From positions 1-36,287 of the forward strand of contig JAEEKL010000166.1 of NCBI GenBank assembly GCA_016282395.1: a DNA stretch of 36,287 nucleotides, written 5' to 3'. Origin of the DNA: Bacteroidales bacterium (GTDB taxonomy: Bacteria; Bacteroidota; Bacteroidia; Bacteroidales; WCHB1-69). The notes under the pieces are model-generated. The model had not been told where the DNA came from, did no database searches, and worked only from the letters and a program-made list of their open reading frames with translations. This document shows, one piece after another, positions 14,172-35,902 of the stretch; the stretch's first letter is position 1; the number at the start of each line of letters is the position of its first letter. Position numbers and translations under genes: made by a program.

Positions 14172-14247
14172 TTGATTTAAATTATTGTGATACTTTAATG
14201 CTATTTTTTGTTTCAGAACAATAACGACAAGATGTTATAATAAACAG

Positions 14248-16249: not shown

Positions 16250-19054
16250 ATGAAAATCATCTACAGTCCTCATTATGACGGCGAAATCTTCCTTGGTGAC
16301 CAACCGGGATGTTTCGACACCCTTTACGCGGGGAATGCCACCCTGCTGCAACAGCTGGGACTCCGTACTGGCATCTGCGTGGCTCCCGCATCCGATATGG
16401 AGCGCGAAGCCGCCTACCAAACAGCAATGGACACCCCCTTGAAAGGCACCTGCTTTGAGTCCTCCGCGAAAACCGACCCCATCGGTGTGGCCGCCAAACT
16501 GCTGCTTTGGTGCGACAACCTCATCATGGCCGGCTGGGACGGCACCTGCACCGACCCGACGTTGACCAAACTCCACGTGCTGGCCGAAATTGAAAAAGAG
16601 ATGCGCAACGGAGCCTTTTTCCCCGGCAATGCAGACTTCTGGCGGAGAATCTGTGACCATCTCGATAACAACAGCTTCCAAAACTCCATCGCCGAAATCC
16701 AAATTGACTGTCCGTGGAGCGAAATCCCCTGTCTTGTGCAGCATGCCCTCAAGACACTGGAAAAAAAGGGGACTCAATTGGTGCTGACAGTGGACGAGAA
16801 CAAGTCTGTGGATTTGCAGACCGACAAGATTTCGGTGGTGAAGTTCGATGACTTGCTGGATGCTTACGAACGGATAACCCAATTAGAGAATATACCACAA
16901 AATTGTGCCATCGTCAACCGTGACAACGCACGGCTCAACCACACACTCTACACTTGGGACAAACCTGTCGTACACGCCACTCTCACGCAGAGCAATCCGC
17001 AGTTGCTACAACTTTTCAAACTGAGCCTGAGCATCTTCTCCCGTCCGCTCAACCTTGGCAACCTCGTTTCCTATCTGCAACTCCCTCTTAGTCCTATTCC
17101 AAGCGCACTGCGTTTCCAATTAGCCCATATCCTGCTGAAAAACGGCGGCTTTGGGGAAGTGAAGGTGCGCGAGGATGGAAATCTCCACGACGAATGGGAT
17201 GAAACCATCCGGACGTATGAGTTCATAGAATACGACAAAGACGGCAACCCCAAGTCTGGGGATAGCAAGAAAGTCAGGGCTGAGAAGATGGCTTTCCTCA
17301 ATCCCGTTCGTCAGGACTTCAGCGACGGAATACCCCAAAACGAGTTGAACAACTATGTGGAGAAGATGCAGGAATGGATACGCGGATTTCTCGGGCTTGA
17401 TGACTTGCCAGACGAGCGCAAGAAGCAGTTCCACCAACTCTCCTCTATGTTTTCCGCTTTCAAGCAGGTGCTCGTTTCCTTGCCGGATCCCGTCTGTTAC
17501 AGCGACATCGCGAAGATGGTGCTTCGTATTTACCGTCCGATGAGTTATTCGTGGCAGCAATCGGAGAAGGGTTCTCTCAACGTTATCGGCGACCTGCGCG
17601 GTATGGCCGTGCCCGCCGATACGCTCATCTGGCTCGATTGCCAGGACGAAGAGCAGGGAACAGACCCTTACGATTTCCTCAGCACGGCGGAACGCCAGTA
17701 TTTGGCCTCAAAAGGTGTGCTGATTCCGGATTTTGCTCAGTATCTGAAAATTCGCCGTCAGGAACGCAACCGCTTGCTTAACAGTGTGAAAGAAAAAGTG
17801 GTGCTGGTGCAGAGTGAATACGATGGTGTAAAACGGCTGGGAGAACACAGTCTGGTAGCCGAGGTGAAGCACCTCTTTGGCAAGTTCGATTATGCGGATG
17901 CGGATGCCGTGCTGCCAAAAATCCCCCGAACTCCGAATCTCCAAAATATTGATACCTTTGGATCGCAGATGCATTACGACCTCAAAATCAACGGCGTGGG
18001 AATGTCTGCCTTCAAAGGGCGCAAGGAGAGTAACTCTTCGATTGATATGCTTATCCAACGGCCCTTCAATTACGTGATGCAGTATGTGGCCCAACTTCCC
18101 GCTCCGAACGACGAGCAGTTGAGCAGCCCCTACATCACAGCAGGTTTGGTGGCACACCACTTCTTCCAACACATCATCGAAGACGGCAAGAAGGCGGCAA
18201 CAGGGGCGGCTCTGTATGACACGTTGCGAAATCTTGCTACAAACCTGTATGATAAGTATTTGGATGCGGCCGTCAACGCCAAGGGGCTGATTCTGCTCGC
18301 GGATGAGAACGCCACGCAATTGCATAACTTCCGTTGGCAGCTTAGGAAGAGTATGCAGACACTCATCGATATTATGGAAGAATTGAAACTCAAGCCCGAG
18401 GGTTGCGAGATGGTGTTTCAGGAAAAAGACGGCAAGGCCTTGAAACTTTCCACCATTGGGGCGTTCGAAGCCCGCATAGACTTTCTGCTCTCCGATTCCA
18501 ATGGCGACTACGTCATTTTCGATTTCAAGTGGAGCTTCGCCAAACGATATGTCCAAAAGTTAGAGGATAATGCCTCCATCCAGTTAGAACTCTACCGGCA
18601 GTCCGTCCGTGCTACTTATCCTGATAAGAAAGTCGTGGGCGTGGGGTATTATATGATGCCTCGACAGAAACTCTTCACCACCGACTTCAGCGATTGGAAC
18701 AATATGATTTGTAAGGTGACCTTAGCCAATTCTAATGACCTTTTCCAGCAGATTCAAAACGCCTACACTTTTCGGAAGGAAGAACTTGAAAAAGGTCATA
18801 TTGAGGAGGGTGAGCTGATGGATGTTCTTCCTTTTACGGATAACTATTACAACAAACAGAATGAGAAAAAACTTTGTTCTCTGGATGTTGTTGAAAAATA
18901 TGAAGGAAGAGGGAAAGGCAGAACATTAGTTGGTGTTACTAAAAATTCGGAATATGTTTATGTCCAATCCCCAAAAAAATCTTTCGATTTCGACGAAAAG
19001 GAGCCTTATGAGACCCCAACATCACATCCCATTTTAAAAGGCAGACTGAAATGA
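16250..19054 (+). CDS. AddB-like PD-(D/E)XK nuclease family protein
   Basis: The protein has 934 residues. The C-terminal part carries the RecB-type PD-(D/E)XK nuclease signature, ARIDFLL then YVIFDFKWS at about residues 740-757, followed by LELYRQSVR. The N-terminal ~700 residues resemble the inactive helicase-like body of AddB/RexB proteins; no Walker A motif is visible. It ends in a 4-nt ATGA overlap with the AddA-like gene, a sign of translational coupling and a stable complex. By family, such pairs unwind and resect double-stranded DNA ends for recombination or destroy foreign linear DNA. Whether this is the cell's main AddAB or an accessory one cannot be told from the window. The neighbouring DUF2779 nuclease and the operator suggest a specialised role (inference). 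Confidence 0.8.
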   Translation: MKIIYSPHYDGEIFLGDQPGCFDTLYAGNATLLQQLGLRTGICVAPASDMEREAAYQTAMDTPLKGTCFESSAKTDPIGVAAKLLLWCDNLIMAGWDGTCTDPTLTKLHVLAEIEKEMRNGAFFPGNADFWRRICDHLDNNSFQNSIAEIQIDCPWSEIPCLVQHALKTLEKKGTQLVLTVDENKSVDLQTDKISVVKFDDLLDAYERITQLENIPQNCAIVNRDNARLNHTLYTWDKPVVHATLTQSNPQLLQLFKLSLSIFSRPLNLGNLVSYLQLPLSPIPSALRFQLAHILLKNGGFGEVKVREDGNLHDEWDETIRTYEFIEYDKDGNPKSGDSKKVRAEKMAFLNPVRQDFSDGIPQNELNNYVEKMQEWIRGFLGLDDLPDERKKQFHQLSSMFSAFKQVLVSLPDPVCYSDIAKMVLRIYRPMSYSWQQSEKGSLNVIGDLRGMAVPADTLIWLDCQDEEQGTDPYDFLSTAERQYLASKGVLIPDFAQYLKIRRQERNRLLNSVKEKVVLVQSEYDGVKRLGEHSLVAEVKHLFGKFDYADADAVLPKIPRTPNLQNIDTFGSQMHYDLKINGVGMSAFKGRKESNSSIDMLIQRPFNYVMQYVAQLPAPNDEQLSSPYITAGLVAHHFFQHIIEDGKKAATGAALYDTLRNLATNLYDKYLDAAVNAKGLILLADENATQLHNFRWQLRKSMQTLIDIMEELKLKPEGCEMVFQEKDGKALKLSTIGAFEARIDFLLSDSNGDYVIFDFKWSFAKRYVQKLEDNASIQLELYRQSVRATYPDKKVVGVGYYMMPRQKLFTTDFSDWNNMICKVTLANSNDLFQQIQNAYTFRKEELEKGHIEEGELMDVLPFTDNYYNKQNEKKLCSLDVVEKYEGRGKGRTLVGVTKNSEYVYVQSPKKSFDFDEKEPYETPTSHPILKGRLK

Positions 19055-22000
19055 AAAAAGTAACCTATATCAATGCCGGTGCAGGTTCGGGAAAGACCTA
19101 CACCCTCACCACATTGTTGGCTGATGAACTTTCCAAAAATAAAGTGAAACCCTCGCAGGTGATTTTGACTACTTTCACCGAGTTGGCTGCTGCTGAATTC
19201 CGCGAGAAGGCCCGCGAGCAGATTTTGGCAAAAGGCAACCTTGAGGCCGCCGCCCAAATTGACGGTGCTGTCATTGGCACTGTGCACTCCATGGCCTTCC
19301 ACTTTGTCAGGAAATTCTGGTATCTGTTGGATTACGGTGCCGACATCCAGCCCATTTCCGAACGCGATGACGATTTCTACAGAGACCAGTCGCTGGCTCG
19401 CATTGTGCAGGAACGCGATGCCAGCGGCCAGCTGAAATACAAGCAGCATCTGGAAAACTTCCGGAATTTCCGCGACTATTTCGACATCACCAACGACAAC
19501 CGTCCCGACTACCTCTTTTGGCAGCCGATTCTCAAGGATGTGGTGGAGAAGATGGAGTACTACGAAGTGAACAATGTGCAAGAGAGCATCAACGAGAGCG
19601 TGAACACCATCAAGAGCGTTTTCAACGGATCCCCTTTGGATTCACAACTGAAGGATGATTTGGTGGATTATCTAAAAAAGTACCAAAAGATTCTCCAAAG
19701 TGAAACATCCAAATCGGCTACCGAACAAAACGACGAGATTTCCGCCTCGTTGAGTGACTTTGACTTCAACTTGGTTCCAACGCTTAAGGTTGTCAATAAC
19801 CCCATTAAACCTGCAAAAATCGAGCAACTGTGTCCCGGGTATAATGATTTCCACGACAAGGCCCTTGCCATTCCCGTATCCGTTTCGAACCAAGACATTT
19901 TAATCCGATTCGTCACCTCCATTTTTGAACTGGCCGCAGTGTGGCGCAGTGATTTCAACACCTACAAACGGGAAAACCACATCATCTCCTACAACGATAT
20001 GGAGCAACTGTTCCTGAAGCTCCTTAAGGAGGAACCTGAAGTGCAGGATTACATCAGGGAACACTACCGTCTGGTGATGGTCGATGAGTTTCAGGATTCC
20101 AACCCCATACAGCTCAAGATTTTCAACGAGCTTTCAGAATTAGTCGGCAGCAATGAAGGCGGCCGTTCCTACTGGGTAGGCGACCCCAAACAGTCGATTT
20201 ATGGCTTCCGCGGCGCCGATACCGAACTGGTGAGCGAGGTGTCGGGAAAATTCACATTCTACGATGATGACAAATGGCACATAGAGTCGAGTGGGCTTGG
20301 TTCGCGGCGACTGGTGAAAAGCTGGCGCTCCCGTGCACAGTTGGTGGAATTGGTGAACGCCACCTTTGAGGAACCGTTCAAAGTGGATGGCATCGACTCG
20401 AAACTCATCACATTGACTCCACAGTTTACATCGGATCATCCCGAAGTTACATACGATCCTGTTGGCCATTGGGAATGCAAGGAGGGTAACAAGGAGCTTG
20501 CCGCAACGGCTTTGGCCGCCAAGGTGAAAGAGTTGCTTGATTCACACGTCAAGGTGCACCACGAAAAACTCGACAAAGATGTTTCTGACATTCGACCCTA
20601 CGATGTGGCGATACTCTGCCGCACCAACGCCAATGCCAAGGCGATTGTCAAGGCCCTGCGCAAATTCGGTGTTCCTGTTTCGGAGCCGGAAGACTCCATC
20701 ATGCAGCGTGTGGAAGTGCAGCTGGTAGTCACACTGCTGCAATTTATGCAAAATCCCGCCCAGAAGCATGTCCGCGCCGACCTGCTGCGGTTGCTCAAAG
20801 GAATGAAGACAGAGGAAATCTTGGTGGATCGGCTGCAATATCTCGACCAGTTGGAGAAAGAGAATGGAGAAATAAATGATGATATCTTGAAAGAGAAGGA
20901 CATTTGGTTGGATGACGATACGCTTTTCAAGGAACTGAAGAAACTGACTGACAGATTTAAGCATCTCTCTATTCCCGAAATGGTGGACGGGCTGATTTAC
21001 GAGTGCGACATTCCTGCGCTCGCCGACAGCTGGGGCGACGGTGCCATCCGTCGGCAGAACCTCTCCACGCTCCGCAAATTGGCTGCCGACTACGATCAGC
21101 GCTGTTTGCAGCTGGGGTTGGGCACCTCCATCACGGGCTTCATCTTCTTCCTCAATAGCAACGAACCCGACAAGTCGCCCGACAATCACTCCGACACGGT
21201 GAAAGTGCTCACCTACCACAGATCCAAAGGCTTAGAATGGTCATCCGTTGTCTTGACCGACCTCAACAATGATGCGCTGAATGACAATGAATGTATCAAA
21301 AAATCGTTTATGAAAGTGTTTGAGGTGGACAAGAAAACGAACCTTGGTGATCCATTCCACAAGGATTATTATCTGCACTATTTCCCGTTTGTTCTGAAAG
21401 GTGCAAGATCCAATCCAGATTCGTCACTGGCCAACAAAATAAAAGATTGGCCCTTGTATAAAGACATCAAAAAGAAGGTGGGCCAGGAGGAACGCCGCCT
21501 GATGTATGTGGGAATGACCCGTGCCAAAGACCGGCTCGTTACATTTGGTCGTGGTGGTAAAGAAAGCGAAGGGAAGCCGAGTGCAGCTCAAATCAATGAA
21601 TTCAATTGGCTGAGAAATGTCGGCGTTGTCAATCCCACGCCTGAAAATGTATGGGATAACAAAAAACACGTCTCGGTATATGAGGATGCTTCTGCGGTTA
21701 CACCCCCGTCAGTGGCCGCAACCTTGAAATGGAACAGGGTGGTGAAACCCGAAGTGCACACTGATTTCGGGAAGCGTTATCTCTCGCCCAGCAAAATAGA
21801 ACGGTTCGAAGAGTGGCAGTTTACGAAATATCGGCAGTGGGCTGACAGCGGCAGCAGAATGTCCACAAGCGGATGGGGTAGCGACTATGCCGCTATTGGC
21901 TCCTGCATTCACGATTTCTTCGCAGTATTCCGTCCCGGCAAAAGTGCTGTTAACGAGGAATTGGCGAAGAGTATCATTGCGGGTTACGGGTTGACGCCCC

Positions 22001-22365
22001 AGCTTTCGGGCAGCGTCGGTGACATCGTGGAGTCCGCCGAATGGCTGTACCGACAGTTGCAGCATCATTTTCCGCAAACAGAAAACGACCGTGTAGAGAT
22101 GGAGGTGCCTTTCCAGCTGACACTTGCCAACGGGCAGACTCTGCGTGGCGAGATGGACCTGCTGTGGTTCTACACCGACGGCGACGGCCAGCATTGTGTG
22201 CTGGTGGACTACAAGACCTTCCCGGGAGTGGACTATGCCAAACACACGCAAAGCCATTATCCGCAGTTGTCGGCATACGCCCAAGCCCTGCGCGAAGAGG
22301 GCATTGACGTGACGCATACGCTTCTCTATTATCCGGTTGGCAGAGTGGTGCATGAGTTATTATAA
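19051..22365 (+). CDS. AddA-like UvrD-family helicase-nuclease
   Basis: The protein has 1104 residues and shows all main superfamily 1A motifs: Walker A INAGAGSGKTYTLTT (about 7-21), Walker B VMVDEFQDSNP (about 343), VGDPKQSIYGFRGAD (about 377), VLTYHRSKGLEW (about 725) and RRLMYVGMTRAKDRL (about 820). The C-terminus carries a PD-(D/E)XK nuclease core, GEMDLLWF then VLVDYKTFPG (about 1035-1057), with a following QLSAYAQAL motif. Helicase plus nuclease in one chain is the AddA/RexA arrangement. Together with the overlapping upstream nuclease gene it should form a two-nuclease AddAB-type enzyme acting on double-stranded DNA ends. It starts with the ATGA overlap at 19051-19054. Confidence 0.88.
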   Translation: MKKVTYINAGAGSGKTYTLTTLLADELSKNKVKPSQVILTTFTELAAAEFREKAREQILAKGNLEAAAQIDGAVIGTVHSMAFHFVRKFWYLLDYGADIQPISERDDDFYRDQSLARIVQERDASGQLKYKQHLENFRNFRDYFDITNDNRPDYLFWQPILKDVVEKMEYYEVNNVQESINESVNTIKSVFNGSPLDSQLKDDLVDYLKKYQKILQSETSKSATEQNDEISASLSDFDFNLVPTLKVVNNPIKPAKIEQLCPGYNDFHDKALAIPVSVSNQDILIRFVTSIFELAAVWRSDFNTYKRENHIISYNDMEQLFLKLLKEEPEVQDYIREHYRLVMVDEFQDSNPIQLKIFNELSELVGSNEGGRSYWVGDPKQSIYGFRGADTELVSEVSGKFTFYDDDKWHIESSGLGSRRLVKSWRSRAQLVELVNATFEEPFKVDGIDSKLITLTPQFTSDHPEVTYDPVGHWECKEGNKELAATALAAKVKELLDSHVKVHHEKLDKDVSDIRPYDVAILCRTNANAKAIVKALRKFGVPVSEPEDSIMQRVEVQLVVTLLQFMQNPAQKHVRADLLRLLKGMKTEEILVDRLQYLDQLEKENGEINDDILKEKDIWLDDDTLFKELKKLTDRFKHLSIPEMVDGLIYECDIPALADSWGDGAIRRQNLSTLRKLAADYDQRCLQLGLGTSITGFIFFLNSNEPDKSPDNHSDTVKVLTYHRSKGLEWSSVVLTDLNNDALNDNECIKKSFMKVFEVDKKTNLGDPFHKDYYLHYFPFVLKGARSNPDSSLANKIKDWPLYKDIKKKVGQEERRLMYVGMTRAKDRLVTFGRGGKESEGKPSAAQINEFNWLRNVGVVNPTPENVWDNKKHVSVYEDASAVTPPSVAATLKWNRVVKPEVHTDFGKRYLSPSKIERFEEWQFTKYRQWADSGSRMSTSGWGSDYAAIGSCIHDFFAVFRPGKSAVNEELAKSIIAGYGLTPQLSGSVGDIVESAEWLYRQLQHHFPQTENDRVEMEVPFQLTLANGQTLRGEMDLLWFYTDGDGQHCVLVDYKTFPGVDYAKHTQSHYPQLSAYAQALREEGIDVTHTLLYYPVGRVVHELL

Positions 22366-23976: not shown

Positions 23977-25485
23977 ATGCCCGGTCTTTCCAAATCCAAG
24001 TACACCAGTTTCCGCAAGTGCCCGAAATACCTTTGGTTGGGCGCGTATAAGCCGGAAGAACAAGTTGTTGACTCCTCCATGCAGGCACGATTCGATACCG
24101 GCACCAGCGTGGGCGAACTCGCCAAAGGGCTGTTCGGTCCCTACACCGATGTCACCACATTGACTGATGACGGCCACCTCGACATCAAGGCGATGCTGGC
24201 CCGCACGCAACAGTGTCTCGCTGACGATGCCGACAATATCTGCGAGGCGGCCTTCTCGTACCGAGGGTGCTATTGTGCGGTGGATATCCTCCGCAAAACC
24301 GATGATGGATACGCCATCTACGAGGTGAAAAGCAGCACCTCGGCCGACAAAGAGGTCTATGCGCAGGATGTGGCCTTCCAAAAATGGGTGCTCACCCAGT
24401 GCGGCGTCAACGTCACGGGCACATACCTCGTCTGCATCAACAACCAATATGTGCGGAATGGCGCGCTGGGTGTCCACCAGCTGTTCAGTATCAACGACAT
24501 TTCGGAGGCGGTGGCGGTGGAATACCCGCAGGTGGCCGCCAACTGCAAGGCAGCCAAAGCGGTGCTGGACAACCCTGCGGAACCGGCCGTGCCCATCGGA
24601 CCGCACTGCCACGAGCCCTACGGTTGTGGGTTTATGAGCTATTGTATGCGCCAATGCGGTATCCCCGACAACGAGCCCACCGTTTTTGATCTTTACAGAG
24701 GTTCGTTTGAGAAACAGTTAGAACATGTACACAACGGTATCGTCTCGTTTCCCGATATTGTCAAATCCGGCATCAATCTTACGCCTATGCAGAAGATGCA
24801 GGTGGACTGCACGATGCATGGCACCAAGCATATTGACAAAGCCGCATTGCACGAATTCCTGAACACGTTGAGTTATCCGATATACCATCTGGACTTTGAG
24901 ACGATGCAGCTCGTTGTCCCGCCATACGACGGCACACGTCCCTACCAACAGATTCCGTTCCAGTACTCGCTGCACATCGAACACGCCGACGGCACGTTGG
25001 AGCACAGGGAATTCTTGGGCAACGGGGTTGACGACCCGCGTCGGGCGTTGGCCGAACAACTCTGCAGGGCCATCCCTGCGGACGCCTGTGTGACCGCTTA
25101 CAACAAAAAATTTGAATGCGGCCGTCTCAGCGAGTTGGCGGATACCTTTCCGGATTTAAGTGCGCACCTGTTGAGCATCAGCAACCATATCATCGACCTG
25201 CTGTCACCCTTTCAGAAAGGCTACTGCTACTATCCGGCGATGGGTGGCGGGTTCTCCATCAAGGCGGTGTTGCCGGCCCTCTTCCCCAGTGACCCCGACT
25301 TGGACTATCACAACCTGGAGGGTTCGGTACACAACGGTGGCGAGGCGATGGACATTTACCCGCTCATCGCTGCCATGTCGCCTGTCGAGCAGGCGGCGGC
25401 CCGCGAGTCGCTGCTCCGCTACTGCGAACTCGACACCTTCGCGATGGTGAAGGTACTGGAGAAGCTGCGGGAGCTGGCGAGGTGA
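23977..25485 (+). CDS. DUF2779 protein: Cas4/RecB-like nuclease fused to a DEDD-type exonuclease
   Basis: The protein has 502 residues. It opens with SKSKYTSFRKCPKYLW, typical of Cas4-like RecB nucleases. A PD-(D/E)XK core follows (AVDILRKTDDGYAIYEVKSST, about 100-120). Cysteines in CHEPYGCGFMSYCMRQCG (about 210-227), with the N-terminal CPKYLW Cys, could bind an iron-sulfur cluster as in Cas4 and AddB. The C-terminal half begins YPIYHLDFETMQ (about 300) with the D-x-E of DEDD exonucleases, continues with AYNKKFECGRL and IDLLSPF, and ends with YCELDTFAMVKVL carrying a late Asp. Two nuclease domains in one protein point to DNA or RNA end trimming. There are no cas genes nearby. It stands beside the AddAB-like genes. 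Confidence 0.82.
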   Translation: MPGLSKSKYTSFRKCPKYLWLGAYKPEEQVVDSSMQARFDTGTSVGELAKGLFGPYTDVTTLTDDGHLDIKAMLARTQQCLADDADNICEAAFSYRGCYCAVDILRKTDDGYAIYEVKSSTSADKEVYAQDVAFQKWVLTQCGVNVTGTYLVCINNQYVRNGALGVHQLFSINDISEAVAVEYPQVAANCKAAKAVLDNPAEPAVPIGPHCHEPYGCGFMSYCMRQCGIPDNEPTVFDLYRGSFEKQLEHVHNGIVSFPDIVKSGINLTPMQKMQVDCTMHGTKHIDKAALHEFLNTLSYPIYHLDFETMQLVVPPYDGTRPYQQIPFQYSLHIEHADGTLEHREFLGNGVDDPRRALAEQLCRAIPADACVTAYNKKFECGRLSELADTFPDLSAHLLSISNHIIDLLSPFQKGYCYYPAMGGGFSIKAVLPALFPSDPDLDYHNLEGSVHNGGEAMDIYPLIAAMSPVEQAAARESLLRYCELDTFAMVKVLEKLRELAR

Positions 25486-27179: not shown

Positions 27180-28256
27180 ATGGGAAAAAAACATAGAAGA
27201 ATCCGTCGCATGAAAAAGATAGTTTCATTTCCAGTGCTGTGCCATGGGCAAAGTCGTGATGATTTCCAAAAGAAGGAATTGGCTTTGTCCGAAGCGTCAC
27301 AATCCATTCCGCAGTGTGATTTGGCGATTTCCCCGAGTGATAAAGCCATCATTTATAAGAGCGAATTGGATTTTGTGTCGCGGTGTATTCTCGACTACCC
27401 TCATATCGAGACCGGGGGGCAGATGTTCGGCTATTGGACGGATGACGGCACTCCGGTCGTGTTATATACCATCGGGCCGGGACCTTGCGCCAACCACCAA
27501 ATAACGTTTTTCAATCAAGATTTGTCTTATTTGGAGTCTGTCGGGAACGTGCTGGTCAGAAAGTACGGGCTTCAGCATATCGGCGAGTGGCATTCTCACC
27601 ACAGATTGGGGTTGGCGCATCCAAGCGGACACGACGCTTCCTCCATGGCAAAAGGGCTGGTGGAAAGCAAACGCAACCGTTTTCTGCTTTGTATCGGCAA
27701 CATAACAGCTGACACGACGAAGCTGAACCCTTTCAATTTTGTGAACGGCAAAGGAACCGACTATGAGGAAGCGCATTGGATGGTTAAGCCGGCAGACAGC
27801 CCATTCCGCGAGCTGATTGACACGGAACTGCGGAACATGTTATGCCTACCAAACACCCCGCAACCCAATTATTCGGGTGTGGATTCGTGCAACTCGTTCC
27901 AGCCTGAAGCGAATGCAACGCCACATTATGATTCAGCGTATTGGCTGTCGGACAAAAATAACAATAAGGTGTTAAAAGCCATAATGGATTTCCTCAACTC
28001 GGATTTGTATGTTTTCAATCTGAAACCAATGCTGGATAATCAAAAACATGTCCATTTGACGTGTACGTACAACAGGGAACTGTCCATGACGGTCTCGTTT
28101 CCTTCCGGTTTCCCCAATGTCCCTCCGGTTTTCAAGATTTGCAAAACAGACTGGAACAATATGGAGACTCCATGTGAATTGATCCTTCCCGAATGGAGGT
28201 TTGACGGGGATATTTACAACTCATTCGTTGAATATTATAAAAACATAGAATTATGA
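27180..28256 (+). CDS. JAB/JAMM metallopeptidase with C-terminal E2/RWD-like domain
   Basis: The protein has 358 residues from ATG 27180; a TTG at 27171 and an ATG at 27210 are alternatives. The JAMM zinc motif is complete: Glu77 in IETGGQMFGY, His138 and His140 in GEWHSHH, Ser149 and Asp152 in HPSGHD. By family it should cut isopeptide or peptide bonds after a ubiquitin-like tail, that is, mature the modifier or remove it from targets. Residues ~260-358 (NKVLKAIMDFL..., MTVSFPSGFPNVPPVFKI) have the pattern of an E2/RWD fold, with the FPxxPP turn and two later Cys (321, 332). This may be a docking domain or a degenerate E2. It opens a seven-gene operon and overlaps the next gene by 4 nt (ATGA). 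Confidence 0.82.
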   Translation: MGKKHRRIRRMKKIVSFPVLCHGQSRDDFQKKELALSEASQSIPQCDLAISPSDKAIIYKSELDFVSRCILDYPHIETGGQMFGYWTDDGTPVVLYTIGPGPCANHQITFFNQDLSYLESVGNVLVRKYGLQHIGEWHSHHRLGLAHPSGHDASSMAKGLVESKRNRFLLCIGNITADTTKLNPFNFVNGKGTDYEEAHWMVKPADSPFRELIDTELRNMLCLPNTPQPNYSGVDSCNSFQPEANATPHYDSAYWLSDKNNNKVLKAIMDFLNSDLYVFNLKPMLDNQKHVHLTCTYNRELSMTVSFPSGFPNVPPVFKICKTDWNNMETPCELILPEWRFDGDIYNSFVEYYKNIEL

Positions 28257-28681
28257 TGGATAATGAACGCTATCAGGCCGAGCAAATGGTTCTTCGCGCC
28301 AAATTACCTGCGAATGCATATCGTTTTATGGATATGGGCACTGCGCACCCGTATATTCTCATGGCGGCACGTACCAATAAAGGGAATGTCTATACTTTGC
28401 GTATTGAACTTTCACAATTCCCGACATATATTCCCAAAGCCTTTGTGACAAAGATGCTTTACGCGAAGGATGGTCATGCGCTCGATGACCCGAGCTCCTC
28501 AATGCACACTCTTTCCAGTGAAAAAGGCTGGACGCGTATTTGTCACTATGGCTCTGCGTCTTGGAATCCCTATGTCTCAATATACAAAATCTATGTGAAG
28601 TGCAGACTGTGGCTGGAAATGTATGAACTCCATCTGAAAACGGGGAAGCACATAGACTATTATTTAAAACACCAAGCTTAA
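28253..28681 (+). CDS. Prokaryotic E2-like (UBC-fold) protein
   Basis: The protein has 142 residues. The order of elements is that of bacterial E2 proteins: a strand-rich start (YTLRIELSQFPTYIPKAFV, residues 47-65, with the yP..P turn), His85, then Cys97 in TRICHYGSASWNP as the probable catalytic Cys, and a C-terminal helix pair ending WLEMYELHLKTGKHIDYY (residues 120-137), the WL.xYe.y..TG pattern of these families. The expected role is to take a modifier from the E1 as a thioester and pass it to a target. It starts in the ATGA overlap with the JAB gene; ATG 28256 is a second possible start. Cys97 is inferred from position, not shown experimentally. Confidence 0.8.
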   Translation: MMDNERYQAEQMVLRAKLPANAYRFMDMGTAHPYILMAARTNKGNVYTLRIELSQFPTYIPKAFVTKMLYAKDGHALDDPSSSMHTLSSEKGWTRICHYGSASWNPYVSIYKIYVKCRLWLEMYELHLKTGKHIDYYLKHQA

Positions 28682-28711
28682 TACAAACGTTAACATTAAA
28701 ATATTAAAATT

Positions 28712-28885
28712 ATGGCAACTGATGAAGAAAAATTAGGCGAAGAAGTTCGCAAACAAGGTGAAGGAACGGCAATGACCGAACTTACTTTCAATCCGGCTAC
28801 CGGAGAATTTGAACAACGTCCGGAAGGCTCTTCAGGACCGGGAGAGGTGGTGACCACCATGACGAAAGAAGGTTTTGCCCAATAG
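28712..28885 (+). CDS. 57-residue acidic peptide in the modifier position of the operon
   Basis: The sequence starts MATDEEKLGEEVRKQGEGTA and ends MTKEGFAQ. It has about twice as many acidic as basic residues, little hydrophobic content and no predicted globular core, so it is probably disordered. It lies between the E2 and E1 genes (8 nt before the E1 start), where related operons encode the ubiquitin-like modifier. It is too short and polar for a beta-grasp fold and has no GG tail. Its C-terminus (KEG then FAQ) could be trimmed after Gly54 by the JAB peptidase; this is speculation. Residues 24-39 hold LTFNPATGEFEQRPEG, a motif also found twice in the membrane protein at 30202-30489. It could be a Pup-like tag, an adaptor or a substrate. 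It was found by reading the frame directly. Confidence 0.65.
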   Translation: MATDEEKLGEEVRKQGEGTAMTELTFNPATGEFEQRPEGSSGPGEVVTTMTKEGFAQ

Positions 28886-28893
28886 TCCAGGCT

Positions 28894-30189
28894 ATGAATG
28901 CAAACATTGTTTTGGAAGACGTGTCGCTTCCAATAGTGTATCTGAGTTCCGAAGAGATTGAGGCCTTTCGCGGTTCCAAGGAAGAGGTTGCGGAGGCGTT
29001 CTCGTATTTGTGGGAGGACGAGTCTGTTTATCACATCCACTTGACGCAACCCAAGCACTCTTTTGGGAAAAAAGAGAAAGTCTTGGTGGCGAAACACGCT
29101 TCAGATTTGGTGTCACGTTATTCGGACGATTCTTTTTTGTTCTTTTTGTTGGTCAACGAAGGGGACTGCCAACTGCAGATGCGGAAGAATGGCGAGATAC
29201 AAGCGTGTGATTTGAACTACATACCTTCAAAGGAGGACTTGTACTCAAGAAACAAGGGCATTTTGGAACTTGACATCTTGGAATCCAAACGGGTGATGAT
29301 TGTGGGTTTGGGCAGTTTCGGATCGCAAATCGCCATAGAATTGGCAAAAGCCGGTGTCGGAAATTTCGCCCTCTTTGATTTTGACAGGGTGGAACTGCAT
29401 AATCTTGCCCGCCACACGTGTACCACCAAGGATTTGGGCCGCTTGAAAACAGATGCCATTTATGATGCTGTCATCGGCAAAAACCCTTATGCCACGGTGG
29501 ATCGTTTCCCTGTCAATATCAATAAGAACATCGAGAATGGTTTGTTGGACGAAGAGGTTACGAAGGCGGATATCGTCATCTGCGCGACGGACAACAACCA
29601 AAGTCGCTTCAACCTTTCCGAAGCATTGGTGCGGCACCGAAAAATCGGCATTTTCGGTCGCGCCATCACGCGTGCGGAGGGTGGCGATGTCTTCCGTTAT
29701 CGTCCCGAAGGCCCCTGTTATTGCTGTATGGTGGGGTCCGGGGCCTTTAATTCCGCAGAGGAGGAAATCACCAATCTGGAGGCCGCGCGCCGGGATGGCC
29801 GCATCCCTGCCTATATGGCGCCCGAAGAGGCGGAAGCGGCGGTCCAAGTGGGTTTGTCAGCCGACATCGAGCCCATCTGCAATCTTATGGTCAAATTGAC
29901 CCTTATGGAGCTCTCCCGCGGCAAGGCTTCCGGCATATCCTCGCTTGAGCAGGATCTGGTCTATGACTACTATATTTGGGCCAACAGGCGCGAAAACAAA
30001 TACTCGAACTGGGCCGCGTTGCCGCAATCAGCGAATATGCCGACCGTTTTGCGCTGGTATGGCGCCAGAATACAAAAGGATGAAGGCTGTCCCGTCTGTT
30101 CGCACACACTCCGTTTAGACGAAGGAGAGGATGTCTTTACGCTTACGGACATCGATGTGAATCTGGACACAGAAGGCCTTTCACTTTAA
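28894..30189 (+). CDS. ThiF/E1-like activating enzyme with extra N-terminal domain
   Basis: The protein has 431 residues. Residues ~130-345 are the E1/ThiF adenylation domain: GLGSFGS (138-144) for nucleotide, FDFDRVELHNLARH (161-174) with the Asp and Arg of the family, RLKTDAI with Lys185, and CATDNNQSRFN (230-240). CYCC (275-278) and CPVC (399-402) probably form a zinc site. Cys329 (EPICNL) and Cys176 are candidates for a thioester Cys. The first ~125 residues are an unrecognised domain, perhaps for binding the modifier or E2. The expected reaction is ATP-dependent adenylation of a modifier C-terminus, followed by transfer to the E2 at 28253-28681. The gene is not linked to thiamine or molybdopterin genes, which supports a conjugation role. 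Confidence 0.87.
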   Translation: MNANIVLEDVSLPIVYLSSEEIEAFRGSKEEVAEAFSYLWEDESVYHIHLTQPKHSFGKKEKVLVAKHASDLVSRYSDDSFLFFLLVNEGDCQLQMRKNGEIQACDLNYIPSKEDLYSRNKGILELDILESKRVMIVGLGSFGSQIAIELAKAGVGNFALFDFDRVELHNLARHTCTTKDLGRLKTDAIYDAVIGKNPYATVDRFPVNINKNIENGLLDEEVTKADIVICATDNNQSRFNLSEALVRHRKIGIFGRAITRAEGGDVFRYRPEGPCYCCMVGSGAFNSAEEEITNLEAARRDGRIPAYMAPEEAEAAVQVGLSADIEPICNLMVKLTLMELSRGKASGISSLEQDLVYDYYIWANRRENKYSNWAALPQSANMPTVLRWYGARIQKDEGCPVCSHTLRLDEGEDVFTLTDIDVNLDTEGLSL

Positions 30190-30201
30190 TGCTAAAAGAT
30201 T

Positions 30202-30489
30202 ATGGGATATATTTACGATAATGAAACCGGTGAATTCAGACCTACGGGAAATACGTCCCATAACAACACCTCTTCAGGGGGATATGTTTACGATGATGAA
30301 ACTGGTGAATTCAGACATTCGGGAAATACGTCTCGTAACAGCACCTCTTCAAGACGTCGGCGAAGTACTCCGACGACACCTTCGTCAGATGGATGTTTTG
30401 ACGGATGTCTGAGTGGATGTCTGTTGGATAACATTGGATGCGTTATTTGGTTTATTGTGCTTGTGATTTTAATGCAAATGTGTTTGTAA
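30202..30489 (+). CDS. Small membrane protein with two TGEF-motif repeats and Cys-rich transmembrane end
   Basis: The protein has 95 residues. Residues 2-19 and 27-44 are near-identical repeats (GYIYDNETGEFRPTGNTS and GYVYDDETGEFRHSGNTS). Next come a basic Arg-rich stretch (residues 51-54) and then a C-terminal hydrophobic helix (about 77-93, IGCVIWFIVLVILMQM) with five Cys (65, 69, 73, 80, 94). The arrangement suggests a C-tail-anchored inner-membrane protein with a soluble N-terminal bait. The TGEF motif also occurs in the 57-residue peptide of the operon, so both may bind the same partner, for example the Clp N-domain or the TerB-like protein (inference). It lies 12 nt after the E1 stop and 1 nt before the ClpB-like gene. 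Confidence 0.75.
   Translation: MGYIYDNETGEFRPTGNTSHNNTSSGGYVYDDETGEFRHSGNTSRNSTSSRRRRSTPTTPSSDGCFDGCLSGCLLDNIGCVIWFIVLVILMQMCL
30205..30354 (+). repeat. Two-copy 75-bp tandem duplication within the small membrane protein gene
   Basis: The segment from 30205 repeats from 30280 with a 75-bp period and few differences, giving the two 25-residue TGEF repeats. An EcoRI-like GAATTC lies at the same place in each copy. Confidence 0.75.
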
Positions 30490-30490
30490 G

Positions 30491-33076
30491 ATGAACTTCG
30501 CTAATTTTTCAACTTTGTCGCAATCGGCTATCAAGCAGGCGCACACATTGGCTTCCCAAGGGTCGAATGCCGCTGTTGAGCCTGCCCATATAATGGTGTC
30601 AATTGTCCAGTTGGACAAGGAACTCGTGTTCTTTTTGCTCAATCACATGGGAGTGGACAGGAATGCCTTTTGCACTGCTCTCGGGGCAATGGTGAAGTCT
30701 CTGCCGAAAGTGCAGACGCAGCCCCCCGGCTTTTCCCCCTCGTTGAATCGCGTGTTTGAAAAAGCGGTGGAGATTGCCGGACGTCGCAATTCGTCGGTGG
30801 TGGCGTTGGAACACATTTTCGCCGCTTCTTTTGAGACCGACAATCCGGTCCGTGACATGATGCCCGATTTCGGGATTACTGTTGAGAAAATCAACAGCGC
30901 GTTGGATGCCTACGGCAACAGTGGTTCGCAAAGCCAACCGCAAAATCCGCAGTCTGACAATGGCGGCTCTCTTCAGCACCTGAGCACGTATGCGGCGAAT
31001 CTTAACAAATTGGCGGAAACGGGTAAAATTGAACCTGTTATCGGAAGGGATGAGGAAATTCGCCGGTTGTTGCAGATTTTGACTCGCAAATCAAAGAACA
31101 ATCCGCTCTTGGTCGGTGCCCCCGGAACCGGCAAAACCGCCATTGTGGAGGGTCTGGCGCATAGAATCCTGCGAGGGGACGTGCCCGAGGAGATGCGCTC
31201 CCTCAAACTGTATGCGTTGGATTTCACCTCACTCGTCGCGGGAGCAAGCATGCAGGGCGAATTTGAGAAACGATTGAATAATGTTATCGCGGATGTTAAA
31301 TCCGACCCCAATATTGTGTTGTTTATTGACGAGATGCACCTGCTTGTCGGGGCGGGGCATGGGGCTATGGATGCCGCCAACATCCTCAAGCCGGCTCTTG
31401 CGCGCGGCGAAATCAAAGTGATCGGGGCCACCACAAACGAGGAATATCGCAAATACATAGAATCAGACAAAGCTTTCGCGCGCCGTTTCCAAAAAGTGGA
31501 TATTGAGGAGCCTGATGTTGATTCCGCGATAACGATCATGCGCGGTATCAAATCGCGTTATGAAAAGCACCATCGAATAAAAATCCTGGACGAAGCGGTG
31601 GTGGCGGCTGTCCAGTTATCCCATCGCTATATCACGGACCGGTTCCTGCCCGACAAAGCCATCGATCTGCTCGACGAAGCCGCCTCCCGTATGCGGGTGG
31701 AGCATCACTCTGTGCCGCACGAATTAGATGAGATTACGCGAACCATACGCAATAAAGAGATGGAGCGCGCATCGCTTATGCAGGACGAGCAACATCACGA
31801 TTTGGCGCAGTTGGAACAAGAAATTGCGGATCTGAAAGAGAATGAGCGAACCATGTATGCCAAATGGCAGAATGAGCGTACGCAACTGGAAGCCGTCCAG
31901 CGCCTGCGTGACCAGAAGGAAAATTTAGAGAAACAGCGGGAAATCGAACAGTCGCTCGGACATTATACGGAAGCTGTTGCCTTGGAGAAGCAAATCGCTG
32001 ACATCGAGGCATCCTTGGACCGGGAGATGTCGGATGTCGATCAGGATTCGCTGCTCCTCAAATATGCCTTGGACGAGGATGAGATTCGCCATGTGGTCAC
32101 CTCTTGGACCGGCATTCCTGTAGAGAAACTGAGTGATGACGATTCTGCGAAAATCCTCAGGTTAGAGGAAGTGCTTGCCAACACGGTGAAAGGACAGGAG
32201 GGTGCCGTACATGCAGTCAGTCAGGCTATCAGACGAAATCGGATGGGCTTTTCGGATGCCAACAAACCCATTGCCTCTTTCCTCTTTCTCGGGACCACCG
32301 GGGTGGGGAAGACGGAATTGGCCAAAGCCCTCGCAGAATACCTTTTCAACAGCCGGGATATGATGGTGCGGATTGATATGAGCGAATATCAGCAAGAGCA
32401 TTCCGTGTCGCGTCTTTTTGGCGCCCCGCCAGGATATGTCGGCTATGACCAAGGCGGACAGCTGACGGAAGCGGTTCGCCGCAAACCCTATAGCGTTGTT
32501 TTGTTGGATGAAATAGAAAAGGGGCATAACAAAGTCTTTGAAACGCTTCTGCAAGTCTTAGACGACGGGCGAATGACAGACGGACAGGGGAATGTGGTTA
32601 ATTTTCGTAACACGATTATCATTATGACGTCCAATTTTGCGGCAGATCTGATTTCTGAACGCACAAACCAACAATGTTTCACTGCGGCAGATGAGGAAAA
32701 CTTAAAGAACCAGCTTGTGGGTATGCTGAAAGCGCGTATATCGCCGGAATTTGTCAACCGAATCAACGACATTGTGCTTTTCCATCCGCTCACGAAGCCG
32801 GTTATCGCCGATATTGCCAGAATGCAGTTGTCGAACTTAACCCAAAAAATGGCTGAACGTGGAATCAATATGAGCATTGATGAAAGTGTGGTTTCCAAGA
32901 TTGCCGAAATCGGTTATGTCCCGGAGTTCGGGGCACGGCCGGTCAAAAGGGCCATCGAGGAGCATGTTGTTGATAATTTGACGATGAAATTGCTTACGGG
33001 CGATATTGTGCAATCGTTGCCGATACAGATAACCGTAGAAAATGGAAATCTTTGTTTTAGAAATATAAATCCGTAA
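30491..33076 (+). CDS. ClpB-like double AAA+ unfoldase
   Basis: The protein has 861 residues with the order of Hsp100/ClpB: a Clp N-domain (about 1-145), a linker (SGSQSQPQNPQSDN), first AAA+ domain with Walker A GAPGTGKT (209-216) and Walker B VLFIDE (276-281), a coiled-coil middle domain (about 405-525, from HELDEITRTIR through QLEAVQRLRDQKENLEK), and second AAA+ domain with Walker A GTTGVGKT (601-608), pore loop GYVG (648-651) and Walker B VVLLDE (669-674). The family uses ATP to pull proteins through a central pore. Oddly, the first pore loop reads ASMQGEF (252-258) where ClpB normally has KYRGEF, so the aromatic is absent. No ClpP-binding IGF loop was seen. Its place behind E1, E2 and JAB suggests it unfolds or extracts modified proteins (inference). 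It is unlikely to be the housekeeping clpB. Confidence 0.9.
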   Translation: MNFANFSTLSQSAIKQAHTLASQGSNAAVEPAHIMVSIVQLDKELVFFLLNHMGVDRNAFCTALGAMVKSLPKVQTQPPGFSPSLNRVFEKAVEIAGRRNSSVVALEHIFAASFETDNPVRDMMPDFGITVEKINSALDAYGNSGSQSQPQNPQSDNGGSLQHLSTYAANLNKLAETGKIEPVIGRDEEIRRLLQILTRKSKNNPLLVGAPGTGKTAIVEGLAHRILRGDVPEEMRSLKLYALDFTSLVAGASMQGEFEKRLNNVIADVKSDPNIVLFIDEMHLLVGAGHGAMDAANILKPALARGEIKVIGATTNEEYRKYIESDKAFARRFQKVDIEEPDVDSAITIMRGIKSRYEKHHRIKILDEAVVAAVQLSHRYITDRFLPDKAIDLLDEAASRMRVEHHSVPHELDEITRTIRNKEMERASLMQDEQHHDLAQLEQEIADLKENERTMYAKWQNERTQLEAVQRLRDQKENLEKQREIEQSLGHYTEAVALEKQIADIEASLDREMSDVDQDSLLLKYALDEDEIRHVVTSWTGIPVEKLSDDDSAKILRLEEVLANTVKGQEGAVHAVSQAIRRNRMGFSDANKPIASFLFLGTTGVGKTELAKALAEYLFNSRDMMVRIDMSEYQQEHSVSRLFGAPPGYVGYDQGGQLTEAVRRKPYSVVLLDEIEKGHNKVFETLLQVLDDGRMTDGQGNVVNFRNTIIIMTSNFAADLISERTNQQCFTAADEENLKNQLVGMLKARISPEFVNRINDIVLFHPLTKPVIADIARMQLSNLTQKMAERGINMSIDESVVSKIAEIGYVPEFGARPVKRAIEEHVVDNLTMKLLTGDIVQSLPIQITVENGNLCFRNINP

Positions 33077-33080
33077 AAAT

Positions 33081-33452
33081 ATGAAGCTCGTTTTTACACA
33101 AGAAGAACAGATAGGCATTCACTGTTTGGTGCAATGTCTCATTAAGGCCGATGGCCTTGTCCATCCCGAAGAGAATGTATGCTGGAATACCATTTTCCTG
33201 AAAATGGGTTGGACGCCAGTAGCTCAAGATGTCATTGCCAATTATGAGCAAAGTGTGGCTGTTGCCACTTTGGCGGCGATGGATGAAGACAAAAAACGGT
33301 TCGCGACGGCGTTTTTCACAATGATCATCCTTGCTGATCAGCGGGTTGCGCCAGAAGAAGCCGAACTCTTGAAAAAATACACGACCGAGGCTCGTCTTCC
33401 CGAAATCCCGAGAGCCGATTGCGCAAGTGTACTGGAACAGTACCTTGTTTGA
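33081..33452 (+). CDS. TerB-like small helical protein
   Basis: The protein has 123 residues, all predicted helical, with two TerB-type acidic turns, KADGLVHPEE (about 23-32) and LADQRVAPEEAELL (about 84-97). TerB-fold proteins occur in stress and phage-defence operons and may bind metals through these acidic turns; family knowledge, not shown here. It starts 4 nt after the ClpB-like stop and is the last gene of the operon. A real tellurite-resistance role is unlikely because no other ter genes are present. It may link the AAA+ machine to a membrane or metal signal, possibly through the 95-residue membrane protein (speculative). Confidence 0.75.
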   Translation: MKLVFTQEEQIGIHCLVQCLIKADGLVHPEENVCWNTIFLKMGWTPVAQDVIANYEQSVAVATLAAMDEDKKRFATAFFTMIILADQRVAPEEAELLKKYTTEARLPEIPRADCASVLEQYLV

Positions 33453-35050: not shown

Positions 35051-35208
35051 CCTTTCCATGATGTTGCATTTGATAAGCTGAAAAAGTTCTTCAGTGATGT
35101 GCCAGATTGACATTCAATGAATCAATACTACAATTAAAGTAATAAATGCATATATCTTAAAATCAAGTGTTCGCAACCAAACCAGATGTTGTGCTTTGAC
35201 GTTTGCTT

Positions 35209-35481
35209 ATGAAATACTTAAAAAAAATGCAAACATTCTATCACGGTTCACACAGATTATTTGATACGTTCGACCTTTCACACGCTCTTGAAGGTGACGG
35301 AAAGGTCAAGTTCGGATTCGGAGTGTATGTGACCTCGAAATACGAATCCGCTGTGCATTATTCGGCGAGTAACAAGTCCGCCACAGAACATTACGTATAT
35401 ACCCTTGAATTGCCTGAGAAAACGGGACAAAACTACATTGCATTTACGGAAAGTCTCGGACGAATGGGGGATACTTGGTAA
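35209..35481 (+). CDS. ADP-ribosyltransferase-like domain, reading frame broken before a NADAR domain
   Basis: This open frame of about 90 residues carries MQTFYHGSHRLFDTFDLS, GDGKVKFGFGVYVTSKYESAVHYS and HYVYTLELPE. The order YHGS, then GxG(x)YVTS, then A..YS matches DUF3990-like and related ART-fold (ADP-ribosyltransferase) domains. The start may be ATG 35209 or ATG 35227. The frame ends in a stop at 35479-35481, but the C-terminal piece NYIAFTE reads as the first strand of a NADAR domain that continues in another frame from 35405-35902. A single-base change near 35448 (or in the G-run 35466-35470) would join the two. I therefore read this as the N-terminal half of one ART-NADAR gene, either disrupted, misassembled or translated by frameshifting. 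Confidence 0.55.
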   Translation: MKYLKKMQTFYHGSHRLFDTFDLSHALEGDGKVKFGFGVYVTSKYESAVHYSASNKSATEHYVYTLELPEKTGQNYIAFTESLGRMGDTW

Positions 35482-35902
35482 TTTCGCTCATACTCCGATA
35501 CAATACGAAGGCGTGACGTACAAGAGTTCCGAACAGCTATTCCAGATGATGAAATTCACGGACGAAGAAGTCCGAAATGCTGTCTGTGCTGCAAACAATC
35601 CCAAATATACGGCGAAACATTACGAGAAAACCCATAGACGAGACGACTGGGGGATGATTATCGTGGATGCCATGAAACAATGCCTTCAGTTGAAGTACGA
35701 ACAAAGTGAGGAGTTTCGGGCGGCGCTGGAACGGAGTAAAGGCAAGTACATTGTCGAAGACCAAAGCACCTTCAGAAAGAAGTATGCCGACACTTGGGGT
35801 GTGAAGCGACAGGGAAATTTCTATGTAGGACCGAATCTTATGGGTCGGTTGCTGATGGAGCTTCGGGACAACGTTCTTCAAGTTTCTCGCCAGTGCCGCT
35901 AA
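35405..35902 (+). CDS. NADAR (YbiA/DUF1768) domain, C-terminal part of a frameshifted gene
   Basis: From about 35450 this frame encodes a NADAR domain: KVSDEWGILGNFAHTPIQYE, YKSSEQLFQMMKFTDEEV, NNPKYTAKHYEK, DDWGMIIVDAMKQCLQLKYEQ, and NFYVGPNLMGRLLMELRD at the end. These are the conserved blocks of YbiA-type proteins. NADAR enzymes remove ADP-ribose from nucleobases (guanine) and are known antitoxins to DarT1-type transferases; that is family knowledge. The given start (TTG) is only the frame edge and has no support. The natural N-terminus lies in the other frame (NYIAFT then KVSDEWG). The upstream ART-like domain fits a toxin-antitoxin or writer-eraser pairing. Confidence 0.7.
   Translation: MNCLRKRDKTTLHLRKVSDEWGILGNFAHTPIQYEGVTYKSSEQLFQMMKFTDEEVRNAVCAANNPKYTAKHYEKTHRRDDWGMIIVDAMKQCLQLKYEQSEEFRAALERSKGKYIVEDQSTFRKKYADTWGVKRQGNFYVGPNLMGRLLMELRDNVLQVSRQCR

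Follow-up and report, generated by a model that had tools for sequence, protein, structure and literature searches.

To our knowledge, the modifiers handled by known E1-E2 cascades are ubiquitin-shaped, the cGAS substrate of cyclic oligonucleotide-based antiphage signaling systems (CBASS) excepted. Here we describe an operon from a gut bacterium of the Bacteroidales (contig JAEEKL010000166.1) wherein genes for an E1-like activating enzyme, an E2-like conjugating enzyme and a JAB/JAMM metallopeptidase are accompanied by genes for a peptide of about 57 residues and for a Clp-type AAA+ protein. The operon lies in the 36,287-nucleotide stretch of DNA that was analyzed (hereafter, the window), which is contig C228 in our numbering of a 2.5-Mb genome that is 69% complete. 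It represents a predicted bacterial ubiquitin-like conjugation system in a new form, the peptide of which may belong to a new class of modifiers.

Short, largely unfolded modifiers that are delivered to an AAA+ ring are familiar from the Pup and UBact systems, wherein the enzymes are PafA and Dop and the modifier tail ends in GGE or GGQ. The system described here would work alike, but with E1, E2 and JAB proteins instead of PafA and Dop and with a GFA tail instead of GGE or GGQ. Neither PafA nor Dop was matched in Pfam among the 10 window proteins that were scanned, the rest of the genome not having been searched for them.

Operons that co-encode E1, E2 and JAB proteins, often on mobile elements, were classified as types 6a to 6e by Iyer et al. 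2006 (PMC1779556). Unlike the present locus, type 6d has a beta-grasp ubiquitin-like protein (Ubl) with a C-terminal Gly; ClpS appears in type 4d, and no ClpB-type partner appears in the portions of that survey available to us. In CBASS, according to the part of the account at hand, Cap2 joins cGAS via a conserved C-terminal Gly or Ala, and cGAS lacks a ubiquitin fold (PMC10097602). Cap2 and Cap3 resemble the proteins described here in comprising E1 and E2 domains and a JAB peptidase, and Cap2 ranks fourth (TMq 0.48) among structures matching a model of a natural peptide-E1 fusion from a related locus (L020; loci are given L numbers throughout). In addition, cGAS is a substrate that is not of the beta-grasp type, and the Ala of the peptide fits the C-terminal Gly/Ala chemistry that this part of the account gives for Cap2. 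In contrast to CBASS, E1 and E2 are separate genes here, the candidate substrate is a 57-residue peptide and a Clp protein is added. No CD-NTase was recognized among the 10 scanned window proteins; a relative in Bradyrhizobium has a SMODS fragment nearby.

The Bil systems (BilABCD) likewise encode a modifier, E2, JAB and E1 as separate genes. The accessible part of their description gives BilA two ubiquitin-like domains, BilD a Cys domain and BilB a CEHH motif (PMC11354881), and our alignments and Pfam scans revealed neither a two-Ubl BilA nor a CEHH motif in the E2; the Cys domain of BilD was not found here either. BubCD is among the structural matches of the L020 model, a likeness that comes from E1 structure alone. 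For Bub operons, the portion of the literature that was available states that phage protection is not demonstrated and that they may mediate stress responses (PMC13373217).

A precedent for the AAA+ partner is offered by the vWA-MoxR "FtsH ternary" systems of Kaur et al. 2020, for which the part of the paper that was accessible describes JAB, E1, Ubl-E2 and RING E3 proteins coupled to AAA+ proteins, with ClpN repeats in rare variants (PMC7159879). Thus, the principle of pairing conjugation with an AAA+ protein has a published precedent, and the present operon differs in its Clp type and its peptide. As far as that part of the paper tells, the Ubl of the FtsH ternary systems is fused as a domain to E2, and their AAA+ proteins are MoxR and FtsH types that occur with vWA proteins, whereas no MoxR/FtsH-type AAA+ protein, vWA protein or RING gene was recognized in the window operon. 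Among the matches listed from a search of open-licence literature, a collection without the main Bil and Bub papers, no title or abstract opening described an E1-E2-JAB set with a ClpB-type partner or a hairpin-peptide modifier, which does not show that none is in print.

A predicted conjugation core with a small peptide

The operon consists of seven open reading frames (ORFs) between positions 27180 and 33452 (Table 1), which overlap by at most 4 nt or are separated by at most 30 nt. Family scans of the window identified the Prok-JAB protein (below cut-off), the ThiF protein and the Clp protein. No Pfam match above cut-off was obtained for the E2, the peptide ORF, the 95-residue protein or the TerB-like protein.

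Table 1. Genes of the conjugation operon in the window.
Feature	Coordinates	Strand	Basis and remarks
JAB/JAMM metallopeptidase, 358 residues, C-terminal domain of ~105 residues	27180..28256	+	PADLOC JAB, JAMM residues
E2 conjugating enzyme (predicted), 142 residues, Cys97 preceded by His85	28253..28681	+	AlphaFold and Foldseek, invariant residues; 4-nt overlap with JAB
57-residue peptide, candidate modifier	28712..28885	+	Homologue precedes E1, or is joined to it, in each of 33 loci
E1-like adenylating enzyme, 431 residues: ThiF fold, N-terminal domain of ~110 residues, four probable Zn cysteines	28894..30189	+	Pfam ThiF, 8.5e-32
95-residue protein	30202..30489	+	Sequence alone
Clp/HSP100 two-ring AAA+ protein, 861 residues	30491..33076	+	TIGR03346 score, motifs, tree
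TerB-like helical protein, 123 residues, weak label	33081..33452	+	Alignment to TerB of L037

An E1 search of 104 genomes of the family returned four matches at E<=1e-20, namely the window, two relatives with 61% and 57% identity and one distant relative with 29%. When genome contigs were scanned with an E1 profile of three rows, 32 loci emerged, of which L015 and L032 are the same contigs as L005 and L006, the two close relatives; the working set comprises 33 loci with the window included. These come mostly from Bacteroidales metagenome-assembled genomes, with two from Fibrobacter and one each from Kiritimatiellae, Desulfovibrionaceae and Verrucomicrobia; host labels were taken from record titles and depend on binning. 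The gene order JAB-E2-peptide-E1 is found in 31 loci, and the remaining two (L024 and L025) start downstream of JAB. Because the core order is kept across the 33 loci, chance is excluded, and the idea that these are chance ORFs was rejected.

A homologue of the peptide is present in all 33 loci, encoded as a separate ORF before E1 in 31 of them and as the N-terminus of the E1 ORF in L013 and L020. The ORF spans about 56 to 67 residues and is longer as called in L006, L018, L026, L036 and L040. The window peptide carries a hairpin motif, [FY][ND]P.TGEFE, and a tail, VVT.MT..GFA. The C-terminus is G[FYW]A followed by zero to five residues, except in L026, L013 and L020, where the ORF continues. 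In an alignment of 35 rows (the 33 loci plus the distant L046 and L050), Gly31 and Gly54 are invariant (35/35) and Ala56 is kept in 33 rows. The ratio of nonsynonymous to synonymous substitution rates (dN/dS) is 0 to 0.29 across 13 close pairs, with several dS values saturated, and by this measure the peptide is under purifying selection. On sequence grounds it is the most constant novelty of the operon and the best candidate for a modifier.

Multiple copies of the peptide were also encountered. Two near-identical copies, each ending SIVKDGFA, share one ORF in the distant locus L051; a second, partial copy occurs in L026, and an upstream remnant ending GFAG occurs in L018 and L040. These tandem and E1-fused peptides are reminiscent of the precursors of polyubiquitin or of Ubl fusions, which require a peptidase.

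The possibility that the peptide is a classical Ubl was set aside, since none of the 35 members matched a Ubl or Pup family in Pfam at E<=0.1 and no Ubl was recovered by a PDB profile search. At E<=0.001 or so, the PDB search matched only SAKe designs, which are kelch-type, over the hairpin segment. In the AlphaFold model of the L020 fusion, the peptide forms one hairpin with a predicted local distance difference test (pLDDT) score of ~80, flanked by helices and a tail of low confidence (51-59). An operon of another E1-E2-JAB type (L007, 2128-4428) is preceded by an 82-residue ORF with the C-terminal sequence MSPHTFGCNS, which might be a remote counterpart of the peptide. L007 and the weakest match, L052, are both weak E1 matches and were left out of all counts.

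The active sites of JAB and E2 are intact by sequence. The JAB protein scores 2.1e-4 against Pfam Prok-JAB (below cut-off) and 1.6e-12 against PADLOC JAB. Its JAMM zinc site, E...HxH...SxxD, is intact, wherein E77, H138, H140 and D152 are invariant in 35 of 35 rows (L024 and L025, with JAB off the contig, were left out). An FP..P pattern noticed by eye raised the idea that its C-terminal domain is an inactive E2 (RWD); profile comparison against the E2 gave a probability of 2.4% (P=0.019), and this relationship is not claimed.

His85 and Cys97 of the E2 are invariant in all 36 aligned rows (L039, with an unclear E2 frame, was left out). A sequence profile alone found no E2 match in the PDB. 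When the AlphaFold model of the E2 (pLDDT 95.4) was compared with the PDB by Foldseek, however, the first 13 rows were E2, FANCL or RWD entries with probabilities of 0.75-1.00 and E-values of 0.012-0.51, none being <=0.001. The model points to a UBC fold, and the aligned sequences to a catalytic-type Cys with an upstream His.

The E1 belongs to the ThiF family and has a conserved Arg/Lys/Asp set and an adenylation domain with a nucleotide site. The L020 fusion model matches structures of ThiF, UBA5, Cap2, MoeB, Uba4, BubCD and MccB; in the alignment used for folding, the E1 rows of L039 and L051 are misplaced at the N-terminus. Cys275, Cys278, Cys399 and Cys402 are the only invariant cysteines across 35 rows (34/34 for the last two), and L030 and L036, wherein E1 is split across two frames, were left out of these counts and of the E1 tree. 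No canonical catalytic Cys is invariant beyond these four probable zinc ligands (C329 is found in 30/35 rows, C230 in 29/35 and C176 in 24/35). Given that no invariant Cys lies outside the zinc site, the acyl-adenylate would probably be passed more or less directly to Cys97 of the E2.

An earlier note on this DNA had described seven closely spaced genes on one strand, intact JAMM residues, an E1-like adenylating enzyme and an E2-like protein, and had held that an E2 without a UBC fold would count against its reading. All of these descriptions are borne out, the E2 model with its UBC fold does not count against that reading, and the ordered gene set that it pointed to recurs elsewhere as the JAB-E2-peptide-E1 core. 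The note had listed the 57-residue peptide as one gene product among the others.

A specialized Clp protein

A Clp gene lies downstream of E1 in 25 of the 32 loci that extend past E1 (31 if L022 is set aside); L031, whose contig stops inside E1, was left out of this count. The distance from E1 to Clp is <=400 nt in 24 of the 25 loci and 3.8 kb in L014. In the latter locus (11364-14230), the full Clp gene is preceded by additional ORFs for partial Clp N-termini, among which lies an ORF that by eye is radical-SAM-like.

The window protein resembles the ClpB disaggregase in having two AAA+ rings with Walker motifs in both (A1, B1, A2, B2), a Clp_N match and, in this long form, an M domain. Unlike ClpB, it scores 1006 bits against the ClpB model TIGR03346, under the cut-off of 1232.1 bits. 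Moreover, the D1 pore-loop Tyr is gone in all 25 operon Clps, being substituted in 17 and lost with a shortened loop in eight, whereas five of five host paralogues keep it. In D2, all 24 complete operon Clps retain the pore sequence GAPPGY. Eight of these 24 lack the M domain, as just 24-25 residues separate D1 from D2 in the short forms versus 101-158 in the others.

A branch with support of 100/99 separates all 24 complete operon Clps from an outgroup of only five host Clp paralogues from three genomes. The tree, limited to this outgroup, and the altered D1 pore loop rule out a housekeeping ClpB and argue, from sequence comparison, that the operon Clp is a dedicated and specialized protein. 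No ClpC-like loop is present in D2, save for an RIGF insertion in L037 and L038 that we take to resemble a ClpP-binding tripeptide; the Clps of these two loci might pair with a protease.

Accessory proteins, spread and neighboring genes

The hairpin motif of the peptide is not confined to it. The 95-residue protein shows, by eye, two copies of the YDxxTGEFR motif of the peptide, a linker of Ser/Thr/Arg and, at the C-terminus, a hydrophobic segment. Near the N-terminus, the motif is found in 18 of 69 downstream accessory ORFs versus 5 of 324 other ORFs, and those five are also operon ORFs: two are the peptide ORF (L006 and L026) and the other three are located between E1 and Clp (one in the window, two in L014). 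Because the pattern was picked after the sequences had been viewed and the 18 carriers include several that are closely related, the Fisher value of 5.5e-11 is descriptive only. We infer from these sequences that the hairpin motif may serve as a shared docking signal.

The accessory proteins differ from locus to locus, whereas the peptide is constant. They include DUF4407 proteins, dynamin-like GTPases (that of L019 matches the LeoBC model at 3.5e-88), an SF1/UvrD helicase in L037 that carries the hairpin motif and is GajB-like (8.1e-15), TerB, SH3_3, PKD/Ig-like proteins and membrane proteins. TerB is sporadic, occurring in the window, in L037 (Pfam 6.3e-8) and as a near-copy in L038, and was therefore rejected as a core member. 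The window TerB-like protein has no Pfam TerB match and no PADLOC match, and BLASTP against the TerB of L037 found nothing; in a pairwise global alignment with the latter it scored better than 500 of 500 shuffles (z=4.1).

The earlier note had presented the conjugation genes as coupled to a ClpB-like protein with intact AAA+ motifs and to a TerB-like protein, and had allowed that E1, E2 and JAB genes regularly found without these two would speak against it. The Clp-type identity and the Walker motifs stand, whereas the D1 pore loop is altered and "ClpB-like" is a loose label; "TerB-like" is the weakest label of all. The core with Clp is a recurrent unit wherein Clp is usual but optional, being absent from 7/32 loci, and the link to TerB, seen in three loci, is sporadic. 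The loci without Clp or TerB thus speak in part against the note's reading.

The system appears to be patchy in its distribution and horizontally spread. E1 searches at order and phylum levels found 4/393 and 4/394 genomes at E<=1e-30, with the window counted in both, and yielded the distant loci L044, L045, L046, L050 and L051. At class level, an E2 profile recovered 2/396 genomes, the window among them. A peptide profile search of the 104 family genomes found two and missed a carrier (G056), and hence under-counts. In the E1 tree, the Fibrobacter and Kiritimatiellae rows are nested among Bacteroidales rows, a placement that is consistent with horizontal spread of the conjugation system.

With the window E1 as query, no E1 relative was found on viral contigs. 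Phage records gave 46 ThiF-type matches, and none among the matches listed (the best 5 of 46) covers 80% of the query. The best phage match (L066, record MT836827.1, 584-6308) has an E1-like gene followed by a 1423-residue FtsK-like ORF and looks bacterial and ESX-like. A plasmid search matched two records, both from Bradyrhizobium barranii.

The conjugative B. barranii plasmid pBb323S2b (L065, 5838-12208) carries JAB, E2 (34.5% identity) and E1 genes. Downstream of these it encodes a SMODS fragment, the last residues of which are TFGA, together with a SAVED-Cap4 nuclease (1.2e-243) and a TIR protein. In L050 (406-3965), a peptide-E1 locus is followed by PtuA-like (2.2e-66) and PtuB-like (4.5e-6) genes of the Septu type. 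By association only, such defense-type neighbors favor a role in defense.

Several other genes of the window were noted. At 35203-35902, two ORFs in different frames overlap. One, of 92 residues, is ART-like (2.8e-5 to ART-PolyVal, below cut-off), and the other encodes a NADAR protein (Pfam 3e-18) with a relationship to the anti-phage family DS32_2 (5.4e-27, likewise below cut-off); the two ORFs resemble a DarT-NADAR pair, possibly a degraded one. An AddAB-like pair, composed of a PD-(D/E)XK nuclease and a UvrD-type helicase with a PD-(D/E)XK domain, occupies 16250-22365 and is followed at 23977-25485 by a DUF2779/Cas4-like nuclease ORF.

Proposed function and its alternatives

We favor a reading, with a probability of roughly 0.48, wherein E1 and E2 attach the peptide as a mini-modifier by its C-terminus, JAB serves to trim it and take it off, and the proteins handled by Clp are those that bear the tag or the motif. 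Phage defense is the probable setting. The modifier would be mostly unstructured apart from one beta-hairpin. JAB would cut away whatever follows G[FYW]A or split tandem and E1-fused precursors, and E1 would then adenylate the C-terminal carboxylate. Following the probable direct transfer to Cys97, E2 would join the peptide to target proteins, from which JAB could take it off again. The hairpin motif would dock on a shared reader, for which the N-domain of Clp and the additional domains of E1 and JAB are the likeliest candidates, and Clp would pull tagged or docked proteins chiefly through its D2 ring. The variable accessories (membrane, Ig/PKD-like, helicase, dynamin and TerB proteins) would provide the output, most likely an anti-phage one. 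The "tag, unfold, untag" cycle suggested in the earlier note would be of this kind.

A more specific version, which we offer tentatively as possible rather than probable, is that the E1, E2 and JAMM proteins attach a non-beta-grasp, Pup-like peptide by its G-aromatic-Ala end, and that a Clp with an altered D1 pore reads the hairpin that effectors encoded in the operon also bear at the N-terminus.

Several observations weigh against our preferred reading. The GFA end is not universal, as L046 and L050 end GFF(x), the candidates in L044 and L045 end PYY(x), an extra copy in L005 ends FFP, and in Bradyrhizobium the fused N-terminal part of E1 shows a stretch like the hairpin but no GFA. The tandem copies of L051 are known from a single genome and could be explained by assembly. 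The L020 fusion model has a pLDDT of just 76.5, falling to 51-59 in the N-terminal helix and the tail. Seven loci (L018, L022, L023, L028, L029, L036 and L039) have no Clp, with 6.7-10 kb past E1 searched in six of them and 1.2 kb in L022; none was seen in the distant L044 and L045 either. L046, L050 and L051 extend just 1.1, 2.5 and 1.8 kb beyond E1, and thus their missing Clp tells little. Clp distances co-vary with those of JAB (r=0.82), E2 (r=0.88) and E1 (r=0.87), with 0/1000 permutations reaching each value, in a manner that cannot tell co-evolution from shared ancestry, which permutation leaves in. This comparison used 20 loci, with L013 (Clp cut), L030, L006 (long peptide) and loci without all five genes left out. 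Finally, the defense-type neighbors may be chance co-residents, given that PtuAB and Cap4 adjoin distant relatives and not the window, and the Bradyrhizobium CD-NTase fragment could be the conjugation substrate in its own locus.

The last point also feeds the strongest alternative, that the peptide is an obligate cofactor or adaptor of E1, for example with its tail gating the enzyme, while an accessory or host protein is conjugated, as is cGAS in CBASS. The fusion of peptide to E1 in L013 and L020, and apparently, without GFA, beside a CD-NTase fragment ending FGA in Bradyrhizobium, would suit such a role, as would the small size of the peptide, which is too short for a beta-grasp. The available part of the CBASS account likewise indicates that a non-Ubl substrate is possible. 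However, two copies in one ORF of L051 and conservation to the last residues suit a processed modifier better, and the accessories that would have to be substrates vary between loci whereas the peptide does not. We consider this alternative unlikely.

Less likely still is a system for proteostasis or envelope stress, wherein the peptide tags damaged proteins, Clp disaggregates them, and TerB, DUF4407 and SH3 membrane proteins place the process at the envelope. The relation of Clp to ClpB and the membrane and TerB accessories agree with this proposal, as does what the accessible text says of Bub operons (PMC13373217). Nevertheless, such a role fits poorly with the patchy occurrence in 4/104 family genomes (window and distant 29% match counted), the spread across phyla, the defense-type effectors and the loss of a D1 pore Tyr that the five host Clp paralogues keep.

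That Clp is an independent chance neighbor of the conjugation genes is very improbable, for despite its absence from 7/32 loci and from L044 and L045, 25/32 loci have it after E1, 24 of them at no more than 400 nt, its distances co-vary with those of JAB, E1 and E2 (r 0.82-0.88), and the operon Clps stand apart from the five host paralogues on one side of a branch with a motor change common to 25/25.

If the favored reading is true, then an E1-E2-JAMM cascade does not require the ubiquitin fold, and ubiquitin-type enzymes are linked to Pup-like tagging and AAA+ unfolding in a bacterial parallel to ubiquitin-Cdc48 that is built on an unrelated tag. The question of a tag plus an unfoldase in bacteria becomes testable in a small reconstituted set of proteins, and the shared N-terminal motif provides a handle for finding the effectors of the system. 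If confirmed, the operon would represent a new route by which cells mark proteins, perhaps against phages.

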